DNA of 64,000 bases, from the NCBI RefSeq assembly GCF_030553305.1, contig NZ_JARRAH010000001.1:372001-436000 (forward strand), read 5' to 3'. The notes under the pieces are model-generated. The model was not told where the DNA came from. It searched no databases and worked only from the letters and a program-made list of their open reading frames with translations. Origin of the DNA: Halomarina ordinaria. Lineage in GTDB: Archaea > Halobacteriota > Halobacteria > Halobacteriales > Haloarculaceae. Shown piece by piece: positions 8,816 to 51,212 of the stretch (within the stretch, counting starts at the first letter, position 1; every line of letters begins with the position of its first letter). Position numbers and translations under genes: made by a program.

Positions 8816-9742
8816 TCAGCGCCGTTCGAGCCGCGAGAGACCGTGCCAGAGCGCGTTCACGAGACGCGTCTCGCCCTCGCCCGCCGCGTCGTCCCACCCC
8901 CTCGCCAGTGCGTCCTCCAGCACGTCGAGGGAGTGGTTCTCGAAGTTGTTCAGCCCGCGGAAGTCCTCCAGCGCCGCGCGGGCGTCCTCGTCGAACGTCT
9001 CGCTCGGCGTCCCGTCGTAGAGGCCGAGGTCTGCCAGAATCGTCTCGACCCCGAGGGCCGCCTCGCCGCTCAGTTCGCGCGTCTCCTCGGGTTCGGCGCG
9101 CGCGAGGAGGGTGACGTCGTACAGCCGGAACACCCGTTCGAGTTCGTCGATGGGCGTCTCGTGGTCGTCGACGCGCACGTCTATCCAGCGGTCGTTCCCA
9201 CCGTCGTAGCCGCCCTCGGGTTTGGCGACGTAGAGCGCGGCCGCCTGCTCGCCGCGCTTGTCGCCGCCCGCCTCGTTACCCGCTCGCAGCGCGGCCAGCA
9301 GGCGCTCTGGGAGGCCGCCGCCGGTCGCCTCGTAGGTCTCCGCCATCGCCGTCAGCGTCTCCGGCCCCTCGAGGATGTTGCCCTGTACGGTGTAGGTGTC
9401 CCCCTGGACGTCGTCGGCGTAGTCGAAGCACTCCTCGCCGGTGAACGCCGCAACCGAGCCGTCCTGCCCGACGACGCCCACCTGCCGGGTCGGCGCGTCC
9501 GGGTCGTCCGCGGTCAGCGCATCGACGACGTCGCCCGCGCGCTCGCCGTCGCGCAACAGGTCGAGGCCGTCCGGCCCGTAGGCGACGTTGGCGAAGCTCT
9601 GGGTGGCGACGGCACCGGCGTCGGCCGCGGCGAAGGGGACGACGGCACCGACGCCGACGAACTTCGAGTGGACCGCGACGCCGACCGCGTCCGTCTCCGG
9701 GTCGCGCGCGACGATGGAGAACGTCGATGGGCTGGGCTGCAT
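8816..9742 (-). CDS. DUF1028 family protein (Ntn-hydrolase-like), 308 aa
   Basis: The N-terminal PSTFSIVARDPETDAVGVAVHSKFVGVGAVVPFA is the DUF1028 signature. The conserved ATQSFANVAYGPDGLDLL and a later VQGNILEGPETLTAM block follow. The fold is related to N-terminal-nucleophile hydrolases, but an activity has not been established for the family. The C-terminal 80 residues (LGVETILADLGLYDG onward) resemble a peptidoglycan-binding-like helical add-on found in some members. No signal peptide, so probably cytoplasmic. Confidence 0.88.
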   Translation of the reverse strand: MQPSPSTFSIVARDPETDAVGVAVHSKFVGVGAVVPFAAADAGAVATQSFANVAYGPDGLDLLRDGERAGDVVDALTADDPDAPTRQVGVVGQDGSVAAFTGEECFDYADDVQGDTYTVQGNILEGPETLTAMAETYEATGGGLPERLLAALRAGNEAGGDKRGEQAAALYVAKPEGGYDGGNDRWIDVRVDDHETPIDELERVFRLYDVTLLARAEPEETRELSGEAALGVETILADLGLYDGTPSETFDEDARAALEDFRGLNNFENHSLDVLEDALARGWDDAAGEGETRLVNALWHGLSRLERR

Positions 9743-9788
9743 GGTCGCGTGTTCGACCTCACCGAGAAAAGCCTTCGTTCGTGACGGT

Positions 9789-10328
9789 TCACCCCTTTCG
9801 GGCGGTCAACGGTTGCTTGCTGACCATCCGGCAGTCGAACGCTGGGTGCTCCACGAGGTGCCAGACGAGCATGTGGCGCCGCCCACCCGAGACTCCCTCG
9901 ACGTCGACTGCGGTGAAGGTCTCCGGGAGGTCGTCGTACAGGCCACAGAGCGTGCCGAAGGCGTCGAACACCTTCCGATGCCCGGCCGAGTCGGCGCGCC
10001 GACGCGAGACGACGTACGTCCCGTCGGGGCGGTGCTCGCCGACGGTGTGGACGAACTCCTCGGTGCGACGGAGGGCGTCGTCGAGCGAGGTGCGTAACGC
10101 ACGCGCTTCGGTGTGCGAGAGCCGGTGGGTCGCATCGTCGAGGCGAACGACGACGACGGGGATGTCGTCGTCGTCGACGGTACTCGTCGCTCTCGCGACC
10201 GGTGAGGACTCAGTTCGCGGGTATTTCTCGACCAGGAGCGCGGGTACTCCGAGGCATGGAACGACGTTCTCCCGCGGACGGAATAAACCCTGTCGGTCGG
10301 ACAGGTCGACCCGTCGCGGACCACCCAC
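9789..10328 (-). CDS. Hypothetical haloarchaeal protein, up to 179 aa, start uncertain
   Basis: The C-terminal 135 residues look like a real soluble protein: IPVVVVRLDDATHRLSHTEARALRTSLDDALRR, then TYVVSRRRADSAGHRKVF, and a beta-rich end FTAVDVEGVSGGRRHMLVWHL. The first 40 residues are less protein-like. A TATA-like GTTTATTC (minus strand, about 10281-10289) lies inside the N-terminal part, so a start downstream of the ATG at 10328 is possible, but no good ATG or GTG is in frame there. Function is unknown. It is divergent from the zinc-ribbon gene at 10360. Confidence 0.55.
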   Translation of the reverse strand: MGGPRRVDLSDRQGLFRPRENVVPCLGVPALLVEKYPRTESSPVARATSTVDDDDIPVVVVRLDDATHRLSHTEARALRTSLDDALRRTEEFVHTVGEHRPDGTYVVSRRRADSAGHRKVFDAFGTLCGLYDDLPETFTAVDVEGVSGGRRHMLVWHLVEHPAFDCRMVSKQPLTARKG

Positions 10329-42929: not shown

Positions 42930-43235
42930 TTACGGTTCGACGAGGACCGTCCCGTCGCTGCGTGCGGTCACCAGACAGTCGGCGAAGTGGAACCGGACGC
43001 TGACGTCACAGTCGGCGTCGGGTCGAAACAGCGCGTCCAGTGCGTCGGGGTCCACCGCGCCGTACAGCGCGTCGAGGTCCTGTGGGTCGACGTCCAGTGC
43101 CTCGCCGACGGCCTCCACGACGGCGACGCTCAGGGAGGGGTCGCCATCCACGTCGTCCTCGGGGCGCTCGTCCTCGCGGTCGGTTCTCGTCTGCTCGGGG
43201 GGTGTCGTCGCGTGCACGCGTTCTGCAGTTCCCAT
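42930..43235 (-). CDS. HalOD1 output-domain protein, 101 aa
   Basis: A small haloarchaeal signalling output domain: PSLSVAVVEAVGEALDVDPQDLDALYGAVDPDALDALF and a strand pair VSVRFHFADCLVTARSDGTVLVEP are the HalOD1 pattern. It is normally found as the output of haloarchaeal two-component systems or alone. The N-terminal 25 residues are acidic and disordered. A Shine-Dalgarno-like GGAGGT at 43254-43259 lies 18 bases before the ATG (43235) and 12 before an in-frame GTG at 43241, so either start is possible. TATA-like CTTTTATC is at about 43271-43278. Confidence 0.85.
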   Translation of the reverse strand: MGTAERVHATTPPEQTRTDREDERPEDDVDGDPSLSVAVVEAVGEALDVDPQDLDALYGAVDPDALDALFRPDADCDVSVRFHFADCLVTARSDGTVLVEP

Positions 43236-43510
43236 TGTCACACCAGTTACACCACCTCCTGTGTCGGTACCCGATAAAAGCCTTCGTCAGACAACGTTAT
43301 TGTTTGTGGTACTATTCTTTATTACGTCTACTTTCGTTTACTGCGTATATTTTAGAGACGCCCCCGGAACGGTACTTTACAGGATATTCCCGGCTCTGTC
43401 GATATTCGTCGGTAGCGCCCGGCAGGTACCCGTCGCTCGGTGTCGGATCGGTTCGAAAAACGGCCGTTCGGTCCGCCCGGCGGTTCGCGCGTGTCGGCGT
43501 CAGCGGCCGG

Positions 43511-43972
43511 TCACTCCTCGAGGCTGATGACCTCGTCGTCGACGTCGTCGGAACCGCCGCGGCGCTTGCCCTGGCGCAGGCCGTAGACGACGGCCCCGAC
43601 GACGGCCAGGACGAGCGCGAGGCTTCCGACGCGCTGGGCGGTGCGCTTCGCGTCCGCGACGCGCGCGCGGACCGCCGTCTTCCGCGAGCGCTCTACCTCG
43701 GCGACAAGCTGACGCCCCTCGTCGGTGTCGCTCGTCCGCAGGTCGGTGATGGTCTCCCCGCGGCGCGGGTCGATATCGAAGACCGTCGCGAGCGCCTCCG
43801 TCGCCGTCTCGAACGGGGTGCTCCGTGGACCCTCCACGGGGGTCTCGGTCTCCTCCTCGTGCGTCTCTTCGCTCTCCTCGTCGGTCACCTCCCGGCGCTC
43901 CGCGACCTCCTCGCGGTCTTCGATGTCGGTCTCGGTCTCTTCGGTCTCGGTGTGGTCTACTGTCCCCGGCAT
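43511..43972 (-). CDS. Acidic single-span membrane protein of unknown function, 153 aa
   Basis: A long Glu/Thr/Asp-rich N-terminus (ETEETETDIEDREEVAERREVT...EEETETPVE) is followed by a soluble segment TPFETATEALATVFDIDPRRGETITDLRT, a helix with Arg/Ala (RSRKTAVRARVADAKRTAQRV) and one transmembrane span VGSLALVLAVVGAVVYGLRQG close to the C-terminus. It is likely tail-anchored with the acidic part cytoplasmic. Start MPGTVDH at 43972. No family is recognised. Confidence 0.65.
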   Translation of the reverse strand: MPGTVDHTETEETETDIEDREEVAERREVTDEESEETHEEETETPVEGPRSTPFETATEALATVFDIDPRRGETITDLRTSDTDEGRQLVAEVERSRKTAVRARVADAKRTAQRVGSLALVLAVVGAVVYGLRQGKRRGGSDDVDDEVISLEE

Positions 43973-44023
43973 AGGTCCCACGAGTCCTGTCGTCTCGTTA
44001 AGCGTTGCGGCCGCGCGTGCCGC

Positions 44024-44422
44024 TCACCGTCCCTCCAGCGCAGCCATATTCGCCTCGACGACCTCCGTGAGCGCCGCGAACTCCTCGCGTGGGCTGAATT
44101 CGATGAGGACGGTTCCAGCGTCTACGGCCATCGTGTGGTCTGGTGCCATGTAGTACATCTCGCCCGCCTCGACCGCCTCGTCGTGGTCGGCGTACCGGAC
44201 GGTCATCCGTCCCGACAGTAAGTACCCCCAGTGCGGGCACTGACACCGGTCGTTCGGTAATCCCTCCAGCAACGGCGCGTCGTCGAAGTCCGTCAGGTAC
44301 GTCTCGTACCCGACCCGCATCTCCCCCCACTCGGCCTCCCGCCACACGCCGTCTTCGGTCTCGAACCCCACCTCGAACTCGGAGAGGGCGGCGTGGCGCC
44401 CGCTCGTGTCGTAGTTTGTCAT
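44024..44422 (-). CDS. Cupin-like protein, 132 aa
   Basis: A conserved small barrel: MRVGYETYLTDFDDAPLLEGLPNDRCQCPHWGYLLSGRMTVRYADHDEAVEAGEMYYMAPDHTMAVDAGTVLIEFSPREE in outline. The metal-type His residues (CPHWG and PDHTM) are present. It lacks the classical HxHxxxxE, so it belongs to a cupin subgroup of unknown ligand. Start MTNYDTSGRHAAL at 44422. Confidence 0.75.
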   Translation of the reverse strand: MTNYDTSGRHAALSEFEVGFETEDGVWREAEWGEMRVGYETYLTDFDDAPLLEGLPNDRCQCPHWGYLLSGRMTVRYADHDEAVEAGEMYYMAPDHTMAVDAGTVLIEFSPREEFAALTEVVEANMAALEGR

Positions 44423-44598
44423 TTGGTACCATGGACCGAAAGGCGCCGCGAGGAGATAACCGCTACTCGTGTCCGTTCGCCGGTATCTACCGGAGACGTT
44501 ACCGTTCGGAGCGTTCGCCTCTCACCTCGGACCTCGCTGGCCCTGAGTGGTGGACACGTCTCGTCTCGGGCACCGCTGCCGACGGCCACGAACTGACT

Positions 44599-45186
44599 CT
44601 AGGTCCCCTGAACCGCGTCGATAACCGCTGTCCCGACCACGATTGGGTCCGTCGGCACCGCACTGGTATCGCTGAGGGTGACCGCGTACTCGTCGAACAT
44701 CGCGAACTCGGACTCGATGGAGCCCACACGCTCACCCTCCGTATCGGTTATCGTGTACTCGTGGGCGATCCACTGGCCGAACGGGAGGACCTTGCGGCCC
44801 AGCGTGACGAGTGCGCCTCGTGAGTTGATCTCGGCGAGGACCGAACGGTCGTCGGCGTCGCGAATCCGCCACGTGTCCCGGGACGGAGAGAGGTCGTTTT
44901 CCAGTATCACGAGGTCTTCCCCGGTCTGGCTGTCCGTGAGGAGGTAGTCGCCGGCGATGTCTAGGGCACCGCTGGCCGTCACGGCAACGACCTCGTCGCC
45001 GTCGGCGTCGACGAAGGAGAACTCGCCTGGATTCTGGTACATATTGTACGTGCCGCGGAAGACCGTGTCGCCGGTGACGTCCCTGGCTTCGTACTCGGGT
45101 CGAAAGTTCTCGTCCCGTCCAGTCTGCTCGACGGTGAACTGGCTGCCCGCGAGGTCGACGGCCGCGAGTTCGTAGTCTCGTGTCAC
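44599..45186 (-). CDS. LURP-one-related/tubby-like protein, 195 aa
   Basis: A beta-barrel with repeated short strands: EYEARDVTGDTVFRGTYN, PGEFSFVDADGDEVVAVTA, YLLTDSQTGEDLVILENDLSPSRDTWRIRDADDRSVLAEINSRG, and ITDTEGERVGSIESEF, each Asp/Gly turned like the LOR fold. LOR and tubby C-terminal proteins bind phospholipids or scramble them. In haloarchaea no role is known. A TATA-like CTTAAGTAT region (45210-45220) precedes the start at 45186. Confidence 0.75.
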   Translation of the reverse strand: MTRDYELAAVDLAGSQFTVEQTGRDENFRPEYEARDVTGDTVFRGTYNMYQNPGEFSFVDADGDEVVAVTASGALDIAGDYLLTDSQTGEDLVILENDLSPSRDTWRIRDADDRSVLAEINSRGALVTLGRKVLPFGQWIAHEYTITDTEGERVGSIESEFAMFDEYAVTLSDTSAVPTDPIVVGTAVIDAVQGT

Positions 45187-45558
45187 TTCTCGGGCAATTA
45201 TACTGCGACGATACTTAAAACCTGCACGAGATTGACAGTCATAGTACGAATCGACGTCACCTGGTCCGTCGCTCTACACCCGCGATATCGGCTGGTTCGA
45301 CCACGGTCCCACGAACGGATACCACGTGGTCCGTACGCCGACCGACCGAACTCCCCTCGGCCGGCACCGAACGAAACGACGACTGCGGTTACCGCAGGTT
45401 CCGCCACCGCAGGCGGCGTTACGCCGCCGAGTGTCGCGTTCGCTCCTCACGTTCGTTCGTCGCAGAACCCTCGGTCGGGGATGTGAACTCGCTCGCAGCG
45501 AGGCTGCTCGCCGCTCGAATCCCTCTTTGTGCGCTTTTTCACACTCCGTTCGAAAACG
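45187..45558. other. Intergenic region between the LOR gene and the left tRNA-Glu, with hairpins
   Basis: No gene is supported. The right half holds two strong inverted repeats, CTGCGGT-T-ACCGCAG (about 45382-45396) and GGCGGCG-TTA-CGCCGCC (45412-45428), and then a tRNA-Glu 3' fragment at 45470-45488. Short open frames here have no protein-like composition. It looks like a scar of earlier recombination at the tRNA-Glu site. Confidence 0.5.
45470..45488 (-). other. 19-base partial copy of the tRNA-Glu 3' end, possible old att remnant
   Basis: The plus-strand sequence CTCGGTCGGGGATGTGAAC matches the last 19 bases of the tRNA-Glu gene (CTCGGTCGGGGATTTGAAC) with one difference. A 3' tRNA fragment is what an integrase leaves at the far end of an element inserted in a tRNA gene. 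It lies 70 bases outside the left full-length copy, so at least two integration events, or a nested one, are suggested. Confidence 0.5.
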
Positions 45559-45655
45559 TGCTCGGTCGGGGATTTGAACCCCGGTCGTTGGCTCGAAAGG
45601 CCAACATGATTGGCCGGACTACACCAACCGAGCGGCGACTGTATCTGCGCACCAC
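45558..45655. repeat. Left 98-base direct repeat (candidate attL), containing tRNA-Glu
   Basis: This matches 51115-51212 at 97 of 98 positions (T at 45644, C at 51201). It covers the whole tRNA-Glu gene and 22 bases upstream of it. Similarity ends abruptly on both sides. The two copies flank the A/T-rich element. Confidence 0.8.
45559..45633 (-). tRNA. tRNA-Glu (anticodon TTC), left copy
   Basis: Acceptor GCTCGGT pairs with ACCGAGC, discriminator A. D arm TGGTGTAGTCCGGCCA, anticodon arm TTGGCCTTTCGAGCCAA (loop CTTTCGA, anticodon TTC) and T arm GGGGTTCAAATCCCC are intact; CCA is not encoded. The upstream side lies in A/T-rich element DNA and shows only a weak TATA-like CTAAATC 44-50 bases before the gene, so this copy may be poorly expressed. 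Confidence 0.93.
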
Positions 45656-46028
45656 GCGCTTCGCGCGCCGCATTGCGATTTAGTCGATTGGTCCCGGCCA
45701 AATCCTACCTGCTCTATAAAGAAAATCGGATACAACGTATATAATACCCGGTGTCGTTGGTCTATAGCCAACTTCGATTAGCCGGGTGGCTAATTGATTT
45801 CAGACACCATTTCGACAATAATAGTGTTCTATGAACCAGCATGCCCGGAGGTACTGCCTTGTTTATCCCCTGTATCCGACCAGCCAATAGGCAGTTAGTA
45901 TCGATATTGTATTATCAAAATAAATCGATATAAAAAATCTCTTGAAGAAGATAAATATAGCGATCCAAACTGGTTGTTCGACTGTATCATAATCTGTCGC
46001 TGGCAAATATATCGACTTAGATTTCGGG
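45656..46028. other. A/T-rich left end of the element, no gene
   Basis: Contains no supported coding frame; a 61-codon frame on the minus strand (45863-46048) is A/T-driven and not protein-like. The segment holds a TAGCCAA motif (45763-45769) followed by TTAGCCGGGTGGCTAA (45777-45792), an imperfect palindrome. These may belong to the element's recombination or control sites. Confidence 0.4.
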
Positions 46029-46649
46029 TTATATTTGTAATTGATCATAGGCCCAAAGGGCCATACCGATTTCTCTGTGTGGTATCCCCAAACTTTGAGA
46101 TAATTGATTGATAACTTCAGTATATTCTATATAACCGTTGATAGTGTCATATGTCTGGAAAAGAGTTATCAGATTTGCATATTTGGAGTACGATGATACT
46201 TGCGGGATATACCAGTTTATGAATGCACGGATCCTTGGTAGGTCAACCATTGAATAATCATTGGGAAAAATCGTAGCTAATAGCATTGAGGCTCTAGACA
46301 CCCCCACTCCTCGGAGTTTGCAGAGCTCCCTCAGTTGGCGGCGTGTATTTGGATGAGACGAAATAGCATCGTGTGTATGTTTTTTAATCATAGGTCCTGC
46401 ATTCGAATCAAAGTTGTCTGAAATATTTGACCGGATCTTCATTATATTACCGTATTCAAATATCGTTACATGCCCTTGCTGTTGCAAGTGGTTCGATATT
46501 GATCTAAATTCGTACTGGTCATCAGTTGTATTTCCATTGTGAATATAGTGGACCTTTTCATTCGGCCGCAGATTTTTATATTCTTTCACCAAACTAGGAA
46601 TATTCCCGCAATCTGGTCCACTGCCGTTGATGAAATTCAGCCTTATCAT
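46029..46649 (-). CDS. HhH/DNA-glycosylase-like protein in the element, 206 aa
   Basis: The central part LCKLRGVGVSRASMLLATIF (residues 110-128) is a helix-hairpin-helix with LRGVG, and MVDLPRIRAF (134-143) puts Asp136 at the place of the catalytic Asp in HhH-GPD DNA glycosylases. Typical glycosylases lie outside this family in length and lack its 100-residue N-terminus (FINGSGPDCGNIPSLVKEYK...). Proteins with the LRGVGVxxASAIL core exist widely as hypotheticals. DNA binding is likely, while base removal is uncertain. TATA-like TATATTTAA lies about 30 bases before the ATG at 46649. Codon use is A/T-rich. Confidence 0.65.
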   Translation of the reverse strand: MIRLNFINGSGPDCGNIPSLVKEYKNLRPNEKVHYIHNGNTTDDQYEFRSISNHLQQQGHVTIFEYGNIMKIRSNISDNFDSNAGPMIKKHTHDAISSHPNTRRQLRELCKLRGVGVSRASMLLATIFPNDYSMVDLPRIRAFINWYIPQVSSYSKYANLITLFQTYDTINGYIEYTEVINQLSQSLGIPHREIGMALWAYDQLQI

Positions 46650-48268
46650 ATCGACTCATTAAGACATCAGTACATTAAATATACTGACTGATTCGTAGTA
46701 ATTCACTTTAGATGGGCTTCCGATGTGAGTGAAGCATCCATATTAAGACGGGCCCATCTACAGGTTTCAATTTGGCCATCGAAGCAGGAAGCCTGCCGCC
46801 CCGCGCCTGTTTGTTGGCGATGAGTTCTATGGAACAACTAGCGATGTTGGATACCATACTTCTCACAGAGAGACCGAAAAAGAAGAATAAAAGAAAATAA
46901 AACTTCTGAGAAAAAAGGTGTATATCCAGAACCTGGCTAAAATACAAATATCACTTAAACACCTTGCTCAAGTTACGTGGTAGTGTAGGGGGTTATTACA
47001 CTCAGCCATCCCCCCGGAGAGCCAACTACTGTAACCTGGCCACAGAATTTCGGTGATATTGGCTGAACAATTACGATATTTTACTGGCGTAACGTCGGAA
47101 TCGGTTCTAAGGTCTCCTGACGACCATGGATGTCTGTCTGAAAATCTTTTCTGAGCCCGGGGTTACCCCTTACGCGACGAAAGAACTCATCCATAACGGT
47201 GAGGAGCAGCTGAGTGACCTCACACGCAATCTGAGAGCAAGGCCCGAACGTCTTTGGGAGAAACCTCACCCAAACTGCCAGAAGCTCTGTGCGGCACGCT
47301 GTGCGATTTCTTCTTGAGTGTGTGGTTTGGGTCTCGGAATTAAATAAAACCGCTCAGAGCGAAAGCTGTGAATTCTCAGCCACATCGCAGCCGTTTTGAA
47401 CTGCTGGAAACTAGCTACGTCGCGGATGAGAGCTCGCTGCGTCAAGCAGCTAGCCAAGGTAGCTAACCAGTGGAGATAACCTAGTTAGTAGGTTACGGTT
47501 TGTAATCTCTATTATTAACGCAGGAAGCCGGCGGGCCCCCAGCCTCTTCAAGTGCTAGTCTCCTAGCGCTAGTCTCCAAAGTTAGTTACTGGACAAGGAG
47601 ACAAGAAGTAGGGGAGATCCGTAGAACAACCAACTGCTATTATATGATTCCATCAATTTAAGCGCGGCCGCACACGCGCGACCCCCCGGCCACCGTCTCT
47701 ATTTGGCTATGGTGATGACGACTCCTCTTTTCGCCCCCCTTTCATTTCGCCAGTTGGCTGGCCAAAGTTCTGGTAGACCAAGCCCAGCAAAATCAACTGG
47801 TTGGCTGAGCGATTGGCCAGCAGTTCAAACTGCAAGTAGGCGAACCGGCCACGTACCGATATCCGTATATAAATTGTCCGCGAGGCTAGAATTTACATTT
47901 TCAATCTATAGGGAGATTCAGTTATGAAGTGTGCAAATATGCCCATGGCCAAACTGCCAGTGAACTCTTGGCTAATGGTAACCACCCATGGGGATACTAA
48001 AGTTGTCTCCTTATCAGCAGCCACGAGGCGGCCGCCGCGTTCCTGCGCAACTAAGCGGGGGGTAATGACTAATCATAATACGTATTAAATACATCTCCAG
48101 TGATTAATGGAATAATCTCTCTAATTCTATCGTGAATATATCTTTGTGTGCTTTGTTACATATACAAAATTAATAGCTCATTTGCTGATATAATGTGTGT
48201 CCTCCATTTGCGAAAAGACACCAACTACATTAGATAGACCAGTACCATCCCACGCTTTTGGCTACTGT
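46650..48268. other. 1.6-kb segment without a convincing gene, rich in short repeats
   Basis: Several short frames (for instance 47126-47317 plus, 47266-47457 minus, 47703-47927 plus) have no family resemblance or codon bias. The minus-strand piece HTQEEIAQRAAQSFWQFG (about 47268-47320) is the only protein-like stretch and may be a relic. The segment holds scattered TTGGC/GCCAA motifs, GCAGGAAGCC repeats (46785, 47520; inverted at 49800) and hairpins such as AACCTA-GTTAG-TAGGTT (47478-47494). It could hold an origin, recombination sites or an untranslated RNA. Confidence 0.4.
47703..47972. repeat. Cluster of seven TTGGC/GCCAA motifs, candidate protein-binding array
   Basis: TTGGC or its complement occurs at 47703, 47754, 47761, 47801, 47813, 47948 and 47968, far above chance in 270 bases. 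Two of them form TTGGC-TG-GCCAA (47754-47765), and the last two flank a hairpin-forming block with ACTG-C-CAGT. They resemble iterons or binding sites of a DNA-binding protein, but no replication gene is present. Confidence 0.4.
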
Positions 48269-49690
48269 TCACTCGTCTTGATAATCATCGTACTTGAAAT
48301 GCCTGAGTCCCTCTGGATACCGAGGGTCTGCTGGGGTGACAGTATCTATATCTAGTAGGTGCTGAACGCGATCCACCGGCATAAATGCTGGAGCTGATAG
48401 GACGTTCTCAAAGGCTTCATTATCTTGATTATTGACTTTCTCAACCACCATCTCTTGATGCTCTTCAAAACCATCCTCAGGGATCATGTCCCAGATGAGA
48501 AGTGAACTGAGCGTGGTAATTAGATTCCCTATTACCCGAGTAGAAAGCTGACCATGGAGGTTCGCGTTTCGCTGGTCTGCCACCACTCTTAGGAAATGGT
48601 TTGTTGACTCTAATTCCTTCCCAACTATTTTTTCAACACCGGACATATTTCCGATCAATGTATTTCGATTATAACGTGTAAGGTCGTCAATTTGTGACAG
48701 TGTCCTCTCTACAGTGAGTGAAGCGCTGTGATGTCTCCAAATCTGGAGTTTATCGTGATACGTTACATCCCCCTTTAGTGTGGATTGACAGGGGTGCCAC
48801 GGGCTCGCCACATCGGTGGTGACATCTCCATCACTACTTGAAATAGCGTCGCAATGGTTATTGAGCAATCCTTCTAAGACTGCAAATCCAGCCGTAGAAG
48901 CATATCGGTCGGGAAGAACACCAAGATGGTCAAGACTCGGGTTACCCCAATCAACAACTCTCCAAGCTTCCTCCCATGAAATCTCTTTACCGTCAATGGT
49001 GGTTGCAATCCCTTGTCTAGTATAGAATACTCTTGAATTAATATGTCGTAATTTGAAAAGCATGAAATGAACGAGAGAAAGATATTCTCTAACGACAGCC
49101 TGATATGGCTCCTCTTGGGAGATCGGGTGTTCAACGGCAAAAGCAGCGGTCCATCCCCAATAGAGAAAGTGGTCGTATGAAATCCGGGGCGGGGATGTCA
49201 TGAAAACAGCATCAGAGAGGTATCTCGGGAGTTGGAGCAAATCTTTATGCGATAAATTGTAAATATCATCCCAATTATTTAGCAAATGCGTGTCTGGATC
49301 AATAAAATGACCTTCTGGGTCATAGTCCTCATCTGAAAGTATTCTTTCACTTTGGCGAAGAAGTCTCTCTAAATTTTCCTTGAAGTCCGGCGGTGATGAA
49401 GAGTCATTCATTGGATTATTATTTTTATGTGGGAATTCATTGAATAAACTACATTCTGGACATTGTACCACATGGATTTCCGCGTCAATTGTCTCCAGTT
49501 CATCCAAATTCGCTAGTACAGCGGATAGCGTTACCTGATATGGTAGTTCGGCCAGTGTAGTTTCACACTTACCACAGATGTATTCGACATCAGATTCGTT
49601 CGTGTTGACTACTGGAGCGCTTTCAGGGACATAATACGGAGTATCGTGTGAATCTGGCTCTGGGATAATATTGAGTCCCACTCTGCGCAT
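48269..49690 (-). CDS. Zinc-ribbon protein with HEPN-like C-terminal domain, 473 aa
   Basis: The N-terminus carries CGKC (Cys39, Cys42) and CPEC (Cys77, Cys80), a zinc ribbon. The middle is helical and aromatic (YDHFLYWGWTAAFAVEHPIS, YLSLVHFMLFKLRHINSRVFY). The C-terminal part has helices around ADQRNANLHGQLSTRVIGNL, where Arg374-Asn-x3-His379 is the RX4-6H motif of HEPN ribonucleases and toxins. HEPN proteins often act in abortive infection and toxin-antitoxin systems. ATG at 49690 is preferred over TTG at 49705 because TTTATAAG (49711-49718) gives a leaderless start there. No antitoxin-like partner is adjacent. Codons are A/T-rich. The family is not named. Confidence 0.55.
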   Translation of the reverse strand: MRRVGLNIIPEPDSHDTPYYVPESAPVVNTNESDVEYICGKCETTLAELPYQVTLSAVLANLDELETIDAEIHVVQCPECSLFNEFPHKNNNPMNDSSSPPDFKENLERLLRQSERILSDEDYDPEGHFIDPDTHLLNNWDDIYNLSHKDLLQLPRYLSDAVFMTSPPRISYDHFLYWGWTAAFAVEHPISQEEPYQAVVREYLSLVHFMLFKLRHINSRVFYTRQGIATTIDGKEISWEEAWRVVDWGNPSLDHLGVLPDRYASTAGFAVLEGLLNNHCDAISSSDGDVTTDVASPWHPCQSTLKGDVTYHDKLQIWRHHSASLTVERTLSQIDDLTRYNRNTLIGNMSGVEKIVGKELESTNHFLRVVADQRNANLHGQLSTRVIGNLITTLSSLLIWDMIPEDGFEEHQEMVVEKVNNQDNEAFENVLSAPAFMPVDRVQHLLDIDTVTPADPRYPEGLRHFKYDDYQDE

Positions 49691-49843
49691 TACTCCAGAT
49701 ATCAATCGAGCTTATAAATTTATGAGGGTTCCATTGGAACCTGATTAATGTCTTTCAGAGTTTGCCCCTCTGCGGGAGTGCGGGGCGGGCGCCGGCTTCC
49801 TGCGTGACTAACCGAGAATCGTGAATCTGCGCCCAATATTTGT

Positions 49844-51070
49844 TCATCCCATACGGTCAAGAGCGTCACGTCGAGATTCTATCGGAGCTTGATCGTACCG
49901 CATTGTTGTTGTCGGGCTCTTGTGCCGTAGTTGAGCCTGTGCTGCCGCCAGATCTTCCTCATGGGTCATATACGTCGCTGTGGATGCTCGGATAGAGTAC
50001 CACGAGAGAGACCGCCCTTTAGTCGAGATATCTGCGAGATCGCAGAGGCGGTGTAGGACGTGACGGAGCGATTGTGACCGATAGGGGTTACCATGTCGGG
50101 TCAGCCACAGAGCGTCAGTTCCAGTATATCGATCGTATGCTCTCCGCTCGGTCAGCCATCGATCAAGTGCGCGAACCGTTCGAGACTGGAGACTGACGAT
50201 CCAGTTGTCTACGTTCTTGCTTGACTGCTCTTTGGGAATCCTGAGTACCCCATTGTCTATGTCCACCCATGAGGTTACAGCTCGTTCTACTTCGATAGGG
50301 CGTAGACCACAATCTAGACTGACCCAGACGAGAGTAGGGGTCTGCCACCCATTCGCGCGTTCCCAATCAGCAGGTCGTACGTCTGACTTGGGCTTCCCGA
50401 ATCGCTGGGCTAAATACCCTTTCCATCGGTCACGCTGTTCCGGTGTGAGATCGTTATACCCCGGAATACTCCCGTATTCAAGTGCCGCCTCGCGGAGTTG
50501 CCGTCTCTCGGATCTGGTAAAGTAATCCCGTGGTCTCGTTGCGTCCCCTGACGAAAACGCATACGGTGGTTCCCACTCGGATCCTCCCCTAGTGTGTACT
50601 CTCCAGCGAAACAATCGAAGGAGTGATTTCTGCGTATTCGACTTGTGTGACTCACTGGCGTCGGAGTATGTGAGGTCGCGTATGTAGGCGTCAGCATCCT
50701 CAGAGGTAACGTCGGTAGTGTACCCTCTCTCATCCCATACAGCGCGGAAAAATTGGTCCGTCCGATAAGCAGTCTGGCGAACGGTCGATTCACTGTAACC
50801 TACAGCACGGTCTGGGTTCTTGCCGAGATGGAGTAACCATTCGATGAACTCCCGTCTAATCTCTTGATAATCGAGTAGCTGGCGTTGGTTTAATCGCTCT
50901 TTGGACGGGCCAGGGACGATTACCGTATCATCGAGTGCATCCTGGCTCATTGGAAACCCCCTCCGACTAACCAGCTTTTCAAATTGGCCTGACAATTTGG
51001 GAGAATCGCTATACAGCGCTCGAATGAGGTGATCCGATTTTGTGTAATTGGCGTCGGCATGCTTGCTCAT
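49844..51070 (-). CDS. int: Tyrosine recombinase/integrase, 408 aa
   Basis: An N-terminal SAM-like DNA-binding domain (YQEIRREFIEWLLHLGKNPDRAVGYSESTVRQTAYRTDQFFR) is followed by the catalytic domain. Active-site residues are Arg257 (LDCGLRPIEVERAV), Lys280 (LRIPKEQSSKN), Arg361 in WYSIRAST, His383 (QLRHKSPTTTMRY) and nucleophile Tyr392. The first His of the usual HxxR is Tyr358. It ends the element at its right end, 46 bases from tRNA-Glu. Start MSKHADANY at 51070 is preferred over an ATG nine codons upstream. Insertion in tRNA-Glu is its inferred action. Confidence 0.88.
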   Translation of the reverse strand: MSKHADANYTKSDHLIRALYSDSPKLSGQFEKLVSRRGFPMSQDALDDTVIVPGPSKERLNQRQLLDYQEIRREFIEWLLHLGKNPDRAVGYSESTVRQTAYRTDQFFRAVWDERGYTTDVTSEDADAYIRDLTYSDASESHKSNTQKSLLRLFRWRVHTRGGSEWEPPYAFSSGDATRPRDYFTRSERRQLREAALEYGSIPGYNDLTPEQRDRWKGYLAQRFGKPKSDVRPADWERANGWQTPTLVWVSLDCGLRPIEVERAVTSWVDIDNGVLRIPKEQSSKNVDNWIVSLQSRTVRALDRWLTERRAYDRYTGTDALWLTRHGNPYRSQSLRHVLHRLCDLADISTKGRSLSWYSIRASTATYMTHEEDLAAAQAQLRHKSPTTTMRYDQAPIESRRDALDRMG

Positions 51071-51114
51071 TGGTGTTTGAGCAGGCGGAAAACACACGAC
51101 GGCGAAGCCGTCCA

Positions 51115-51212
51115 GTGCTCGGTCGGGGATTTGAACCCCGGTCGTTGGCTCGAAAGGCCAACATGATTGGCCGGACTACACCAACCGAGCGGCGACTGTA
51201 CCTGCGCACCAC
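51115..51212. repeat. Right 98-base direct repeat (candidate attR), containing tRNA-Glu
   Basis: Identical to 45558-45655 except position 51201. The right flank is normal G/C-rich chromosome and the left flank is the integrase side of the element. The real crossover cannot be placed inside the shared 98 bases. Confidence 0.8.
51116..51190 (-). tRNA. tRNA-Glu (anticodon TTC), right copy
   Basis: Sequence identical to the left copy, with the same folding and anticodon. It is preceded (on the minus strand) by a clear TATA box TTTATC at 51218-51223, so this is likely the copy with the native promoter. Downstream, on the element side, a hairpin GACGGC-TTC-GCCGTC and TTTTCC may end the transcript, or it may read into the integrase gene. 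Confidence 0.93.

Follow-up and report, generated by a model that had tools for sequence, protein, structure and literature searches.

The window analysed here, a stretch of 64,000 nt from a haloarchaeal chromosome (G000:C1:372001–436000; assembly of 3.6 Mb in 6 contigs), contains at 45558–51212, attachment repeats included, a small integrative element that probably carries two antiviral effectors, proteins for which we infer a role in defence. As a mobile element it is ordinary and of a known kind, inserted at a tRNA-Glu(TTC) gene and equipped with an HSTV-2-type tyrosine integrase. The new part is the cargo, which comprises a 473-aa HEPN-like protein and a 206-aa protein derived from OGG2-type DNA glycosylases, and it is above all the family of the latter that makes a good antiviral candidate.

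The element is bounded by two complete tRNA-Glu(TTC) genes that lie in a direct repeat of 98 nt (97/98 identical, spacing 5,557), as a first reading of the window from its letters alone (the sequence-only reading) had proposed. The DNA enclosed by the repeats (5,459 bp) has a GC content of 40–54% (about 45%) against about 66% outside, so that a check of composition along the region bears out the A/T-rich interior described earlier. Between the repeats there are three long open reading frames (ORFs), all on the minus strand, and the arrangement read from the letters, with an integrase at one end, two other genes and a 1.6-kb gene-poor block, is the one recovered here (Table 1). Replication, capsid or transfer genes were not found among the element ORFs, either in the ORF list or by domain search, in keeping with the earlier claim for replication and transfer genes, and Rfam recognised only the tRNAs in the element. 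A search with the DNA of the whole element gave no match in phages and plasmids, and in genomes the integrase gene alone aligned.

The occupied site was compared with the same locus in seven congeners (G001–G007). All seven have one tRNA-Glu there and none has a tandem pair, which is the empty site that the sequence-only reading had suggested looking for. To the right of the tRNA stands the same hbd-type gene in 7/7 congeners (71–87% DNA identity), and to the left, at a distance of several hundred bp or more, six of the seven have a homolog of the 103-aa gene of the window (42930–43241). The insertion of foreign DNA at this tRNA-Glu locus is thus confirmed. Because the box A (TTTAT) conserved in G001, G003 and G007 is found upstream of the right copy and is missing at the left copy, and because the sequence directly after the tRNA in G001 resembles that downstream of the left copy (CTTTTCGAACAGAGTGAGAAAAGCGC against CGTTTTCGAACGGAGTGTGAAAAAGCGC), it is the right copy that has retained the promoter of the chromosome, and the insertion has its far end at the left copy; a native-looking promoter had indeed been noticed at the right copy only. 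Remnants of the tRNA 3' end, 19–29 nt in length, lie downstream of the tRNA in several congeners as well as in the window, and the site has therefore been used repeatedly. A tandem duplication of the native tRNA-Glu locus would account for the fact that a whole tRNA and 22 bp of species-specific leader are repeated, which exceeds the 42–87-bp repeats of most relatives. This explanation is disfavoured and very improbable, however, given the single copy in every congener, the drop of about 20 points in GC content between the copies, the lack of a DNA match elsewhere except for the integrase gene, and an integrase at the usual distance and in the usual orientation.

The integrase adjoins the right end of the element and contains PF00589 (1.9e-15) as its sole domain. 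It is 49.9% identical over 89% to the integrase of HSTV-2 (XerCD) and, judged from its sequence, is a member of the HSTV-2-type family, matching the family called 'HSTV2' in a review of archaeal recombinases (Badel et al. 2021, PMC8371274). Membership of the SNJ2-type family was ruled out, as a profile of that family (seeded with L107/L078 and including the HHPV4 integrase) did not recover the window integrase and a domain search found no SAM domain in it. Homologs at E<=1e-40 are present in 179 of 391 haloarchaeal genomes. Among 60 sampled loci, which are those with the most similar integrases and hence biased towards this site, tRNA-Glu adjoins the integrase in 42, and 22 show a repeat that overlaps the tRNA; these repeats are mostly 42–69 bp long, although two at tRNA-Ser reach 79 and 81 bp and that of L073 reaches 87 bp, so that the 98 bp of the window make the longest clean repeat seen, though on the same scale as in relatives. 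The element is accordingly a long-repeat example of the known HSTV-2-type kind. In three HSTV-2-type elements at tRNA-Ser (L170, L172 and L073) a near-whole tRNA is duplicated (79–87 bp) and the integrase lies at the tRNA 5' end, not the 3' end.

The integrase is full-length and its core residues are intact (R254, K282, R358, H380 and Y389). It carries Ala at position 359, adjoining the box-II Arg, in place of the His found in 63 of 65 aligned integrases, and a second change at a near-invariant position, G362A. Although H359A is unusual, not every active tyrosine recombinase has this second His, and for this reason the present activity of the integrase is regarded from its sequence as uncertain rather than excluded. 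The family to which it belongs targets tRNA-Glu, which supports the tRNA-Glu integrative element put forward in the sequence-only reading.

Relatives of the 206-aa protein occur in 14 other genomes among the 391. The residues invariant in their alignment are grouped around L-x-G-V-x-V-P-x-A-S...(I/V)(I/V/L)DY...R. PF21790 OGG is touched by 7 of 14 members (best 0.0017), and the family profile matches the archaeal OGG/AP lyase 9o00–9o02 (E 0.029) in an alignment that spans the HhH motif, the catalytic Asp and the C-terminal EMDLRIWA/EVDMALWA. The AF2 model of the protein has a pLDDT of 79 and a pTM of 0.78, and its top PDB matches in Foldseek are MjOgg, SsOgg and other HhH-GPD glycosylases, with a probability of 0.94–0.98 for the best OGG2. 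Profiles and model together point to an unnamed family in the HhH-GPD superfamily, related to the OGG2 type; the HhH motif of the earlier description is present, but the protein is a glycosylase relative rather than a generic HhH DNA binder. The catalytic Asp (D136) is invariant in 14/14 members, whereas the position of the Schiff-base Lys of OGG2 is occupied by Pro in 13 members and by Ser in the window protein. Since this Lys is lost, the family is not filed as a bifunctional OGG2, and since the Asp is invariant as well, the prediction is either a glycosylase of the monofunctional type or a binder that flips bases without catalysis.

An HSTV-2-type integrase lies <=4 kb from the HhH gene in 6 of 15 genomes, against about 0.2% expected at random positions, a figure that treats as independent two genes that both belong to islands. 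ApeA is encoded near the HhH gene in Halolamina salifodinae (L074; PF18862 8.5e-40, PF18739 5.4e-22), and a CBASS cyclase (6.5e-164) with a 2TM effector in Halorubrum ezzemoulense; other neighbours include a type II methylase, McrBC, Mrr, Schlafen-AlbA and HNH domains. The expectation that elements of this kind carry defence genes is thus borne out by relatives that have the same integrase and the HhH gene. In the L074 element, which is at a tRNA-Thr gene, a UDG-superfamily protein (9437–10174; PF03167 1.4e-10) is encoded between the OGG2-like gene and ApeA, and this defence element thus holds two glycosylase-fold genes. A search of phage proteins with the 206-aa protein found HHPV3 and HHPV4 as sole matches, and these pleolipoviruses each encode a full-length OGG2-like member of 223 aa (L103:42–713 and L104:10251–10922, respectively), of which the deposited annotation shows just a 110-codon ORF ('putative protein 17' / ORF8). 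The cargo proteins had no match in plasmids, nor did scans of IMG/VR for both cargo families give any.

In L073, L074, L076 and L084/L116 (HSTV-2 type) and in L107 (SNJ2 type) the HhH gene is directly downstream of the integrase gene on the same strand, with gaps of 28–118 bp, and the SNJ2 integrase is accompanied by two small helper proteins (PMC5867852, PMC8371274). Both observations would suit an HhH-GPD protein that is an accessory of mobility, such as a directionality factor, an integration helper or a protein for repair of element DNA, and not a defence effector. We consider such an accessory unlikely: HHPV3 has the HhH gene and no integrase gene (PMC5867852), which argues against a protein that solely helps an integrase; for about half of the HhH homologs no integrase was recognised within 9 kb; in the window the HhH gene is 3.2 kb from the integrase gene, past the HEPN-like gene; and it would be unusual for a helper of this sort to have a glycosylase fold in which the catalytic Asp is invariant.

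Relatives of the 473-aa protein are rare (8–9 of 391 genomes) and are mostly encoded by single AT-rich genes (41–44% GC) in GC-rich DNA. Three such lone genes (L097, L098 and L099) are adjoined by tRNA-Lys, tRNA-Phe and tRNA-Pro, and at these loci neither a recognised integrase nor a second tRNA repeat was found when tRNA 3' repeats were looked for beyond the homologs. R373 and H378 of the C-terminal RNxxxH motif (R-x4-6-H) are invariant in six aligned members and are kept in a divergent homolog from G235. The HEPN_Swt1 profile gave one sub-cutoff match only in 145 haloarchaeal genomes. The N-terminal residues, about 80 in number (CGKC...CPEC), occur as a separate small protein in the congeners G001 and G007. 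In two congeners the gene of the stand-alone 80-aa Zn-ribbon protein overlaps a membrane-protein gene and is near SNJ2-type integrases (L095:9310–9552 and L096:8209–8451).

Several results weigh against two antiviral effectors on a functional element and have to be set beside the evidence above. An hhalign comparison of the HEPN-like family with ApeA-HEPN and a second HEPN candidate, each a single sequence, was negative, and the AF2 single-sequence model of the 473-aa protein (pLDDT 35) was unusable; because of these two results, and because HEPN_Swt1 was touched (at 0.046) by one family member only, 'HEPN-like', the term already used in the sequence-only reading, is a motif-level call, based on the invariant RNxxxH and not confirmed by profiles. 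The Foldseek matches of the 206-aa protein have a TM of just 0.35–0.40, and none reaches E<=0.001. No PADLOC model was matched by any of the three element proteins, which agrees with the earlier statement that the cargo is not a named system and, for the cargo, counts against a defence role. The defence neighbours of the HhH genes were counted without a matched background control, and H359A and the HhH homologs lacking a nearby integrase are also to be entered here. Despite these points, we regard a small integrative element with two antiviral effectors as the probable explanation.

The gene-poor block gave no Rfam match and no strongly structured RNA; the strongest z in an RNA folding scan of 146 windows was −2.95, which is not convincing. 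A GC-rich motif (core CGCAGGAAGCCGGCG) has four copies in the element, whereas dinucleotide shuffles give 0.065 each, the motif having been derived from the same data. It is not a genome-wide repeat, and a third exact match elsewhere lies within a GC-rich stretch. Copies C and D form 34-nt direct repeats (27/34 identical) on either side of the HEPN-like gene. An integron-like cassette bounded by these repeats was considered and rejected, as such repeats are missing in 5 of 6 homologs. In L203, a HEPN-like homolog is located between unrelated 27-nt direct repeats (24/27).

Table 1. Features of the integrative element and of its left flank, in window coordinates
Feature	Position	Strand	Remarks
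Left attachment repeat	45558..45655	(-)	Whole tRNA-Glu(TTC) copy 45558–45633 plus 22 bp upstream; without native box A; host DNA runs on leftwards
Right attachment repeat	51115..51212	(-)	Whole tRNA-Glu(TTC) copy 51115–51190 plus 22 bp; box A (TTTATC) of the native promoter just rightwards
HSTV-2-type tyrosine integrase (by sequence)	49844..51070	(-)	ATG at 51070; GTG at 51097 possible as start
473-aa HEPN-like protein (motif level)	48269..49690	(-)	N-terminal CxxC...CxxC Zn-ribbon-like module and C-terminal RNxxxH
206-aa HhH-GPD (OGG2-like) protein, glycosylase family	46029..46649	(-)	D136 kept; Ser at Schiff-base Lys position
Gene-poor block, 1.6 kb	46650..48268		Without long ORF; holds 3 of 4 GC-rich motif copies
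GC-rich motif, copy A	46783..46802	(+)	
GC-rich motif, copy B	47519..47543	(+)	
GC-rich motif, copy C	48024..48057	(-)	CGCAGGAA... core; direct repeat of copy D
GC-rich motif, copy D	49784..49817	(-)	Between integrase stop and HEPN-like start
tRNA-Glu 3'-end remnant	45470..45488	(-)	Old attachment scar, outside element

Two further explanations were considered. The two cargo genes, as the sole long non-integrase ORFs of the element and both on the minus strand, could form one toxin-antitoxin or two-gene defence system, in which a HEPN-like RNase would be the toxin and the HhH protein its regulator or sensor. We hold a joint system to be quite unlikely, since the two families share no locus among the 14 other HhH and about 8 other HEPN-like genomes and since 1.6 kb separates the genes in the window. 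Alternatively, the whole could be what decay has left of a provirus or plasmid that was once larger, with an impaired integrase, eroded genes in the 1.6-kb block and cargo without current function; the missing replication gene, the gene-poor block, H359A and G362A would fit such decay, as would the tRNA 3' scars left by repeated insertion and loss at the site. Decay of this extent seems improbable to us, given that the three genes are all long and intact with conserved motifs, that the L073 element, at 6.0 kb, is as compact and has intact genes and a perfect repeat of 87 bp, and that the attachment repeats are 97/98 identical, which suggests a recent arrival. To the left of the element, the interval of about 2.2 kb that separates the 103-aa gene from the tRNA (43242–45470) contains ORFs for proteins of 156 aa, 132 aa (cupin-like) and 195 aa (LURP-one-like); it measures only about 600 bp in several congeners and is possibly another, older insertion.

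For a compact element with two effectors, the following course of events is proposed. The HSTV-2-type integrase would insert the element at the tRNA-Glu(TTC) gene by a crossover inside the tRNA sequence, leaving the chromosomal promoter with the right copy and an element-borne attachment copy without native promoter at the left. Since no replication gene is visible, the element is probably maintained by integration and moved passively or with the aid of helper plasmids or viruses. The 473-aa protein, as a HEPN-type RNase, would cut RNA and so arrest infected cells, and the Lys-less OGG2-derived protein, as a monofunctional-type DNA glycosylase, would act on modified or damaged viral DNA bases by removing or binding them, the two effectors acting independently. 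A broader proposal, which we put forward tentatively and think rather unlikely to be right, is that the Lys-less OGG2-derived proteins are a new class of antiviral DNA glycosylases with the HhH-GPD fold in haloarchaea, which would recognise modified or damaged viral DNA bases, be spread by tRNA-targeting integrative elements and have been taken up by pleolipoviruses. The locus, small, clean and testable, illustrates how haloarchaeal tRNA-Glu loci are reshaped by HSTV-2-type integrases, and it draws attention to two unnamed protein families carried by such elements. The occurrence of the Lys-less family among CBASS, ApeA and restriction genes and in pleolipoviruses makes it a concrete candidate for glycosylase-based defence, and a report of an antiviral role for the HhH-GPD fold was not found in the open-access literature searched. 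Nor did searches of that literature turn up an account of this combination, a result that argues weakly for novelty.

Compared with HSTV-2-type elements ('HSTV2', PMC8371274), the element agrees in integrase family, single PF00589 domain, position at the tRNA 3' end, tRNA-Glu target and tRNA-derived repeats, but its 98-bp repeat comprises a whole tRNA and leader, as opposed to 42–87 bp in most relatives where a repeat was found, and it carries just two cargo genes and an integrase with H359A. The L073 tRNA-Ser element (genome G386) is likewise compact and AT-rich, with a homologous integrase beside an HhH-GPD gene and a whole tRNA duplicated; it differs in having its integrase at the tRNA 5' end and in its own cargo, a Prim-Pol and a winged-HTH protein with an RNxxxxH-like stretch. 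The 473-aa protein shares with ApeA and other single-protein HEPN defence RNases a C-terminal RNxxxH-type motif in a helical region and, as the ApeA of L074 illustrates, the same class of tRNA-site element, whereas it has a Zn-ribbon, lacks the ApeA N-terminal domain and shows no profile similarity to HEPN_Apea. With the archaeal OGG2 8-oxoguanine DNA glycosylase/AP lyase (MjOgg 3knt, SsOgg 3fhg, 9o00–9o03) the 206-aa protein has in common the HhH-GPD fold, size, catalytic Asp and C-terminal (E)xDxxxWA, while its family has replaced the Schiff-base Lys by Pro, or by Ser in the window, and rides on mobile elements and pleolipoviruses. Brig1 and Brig3 provide the precedent for antiviral defence by DNA glycosylases (PMC11078745, PMC13160076), and although they belong to the uracil-DNA-glycosylase superfamily and not to HhH-GPD, the analogy that we propose here lies in the antiviral setting of a DNA glycosylase fold.

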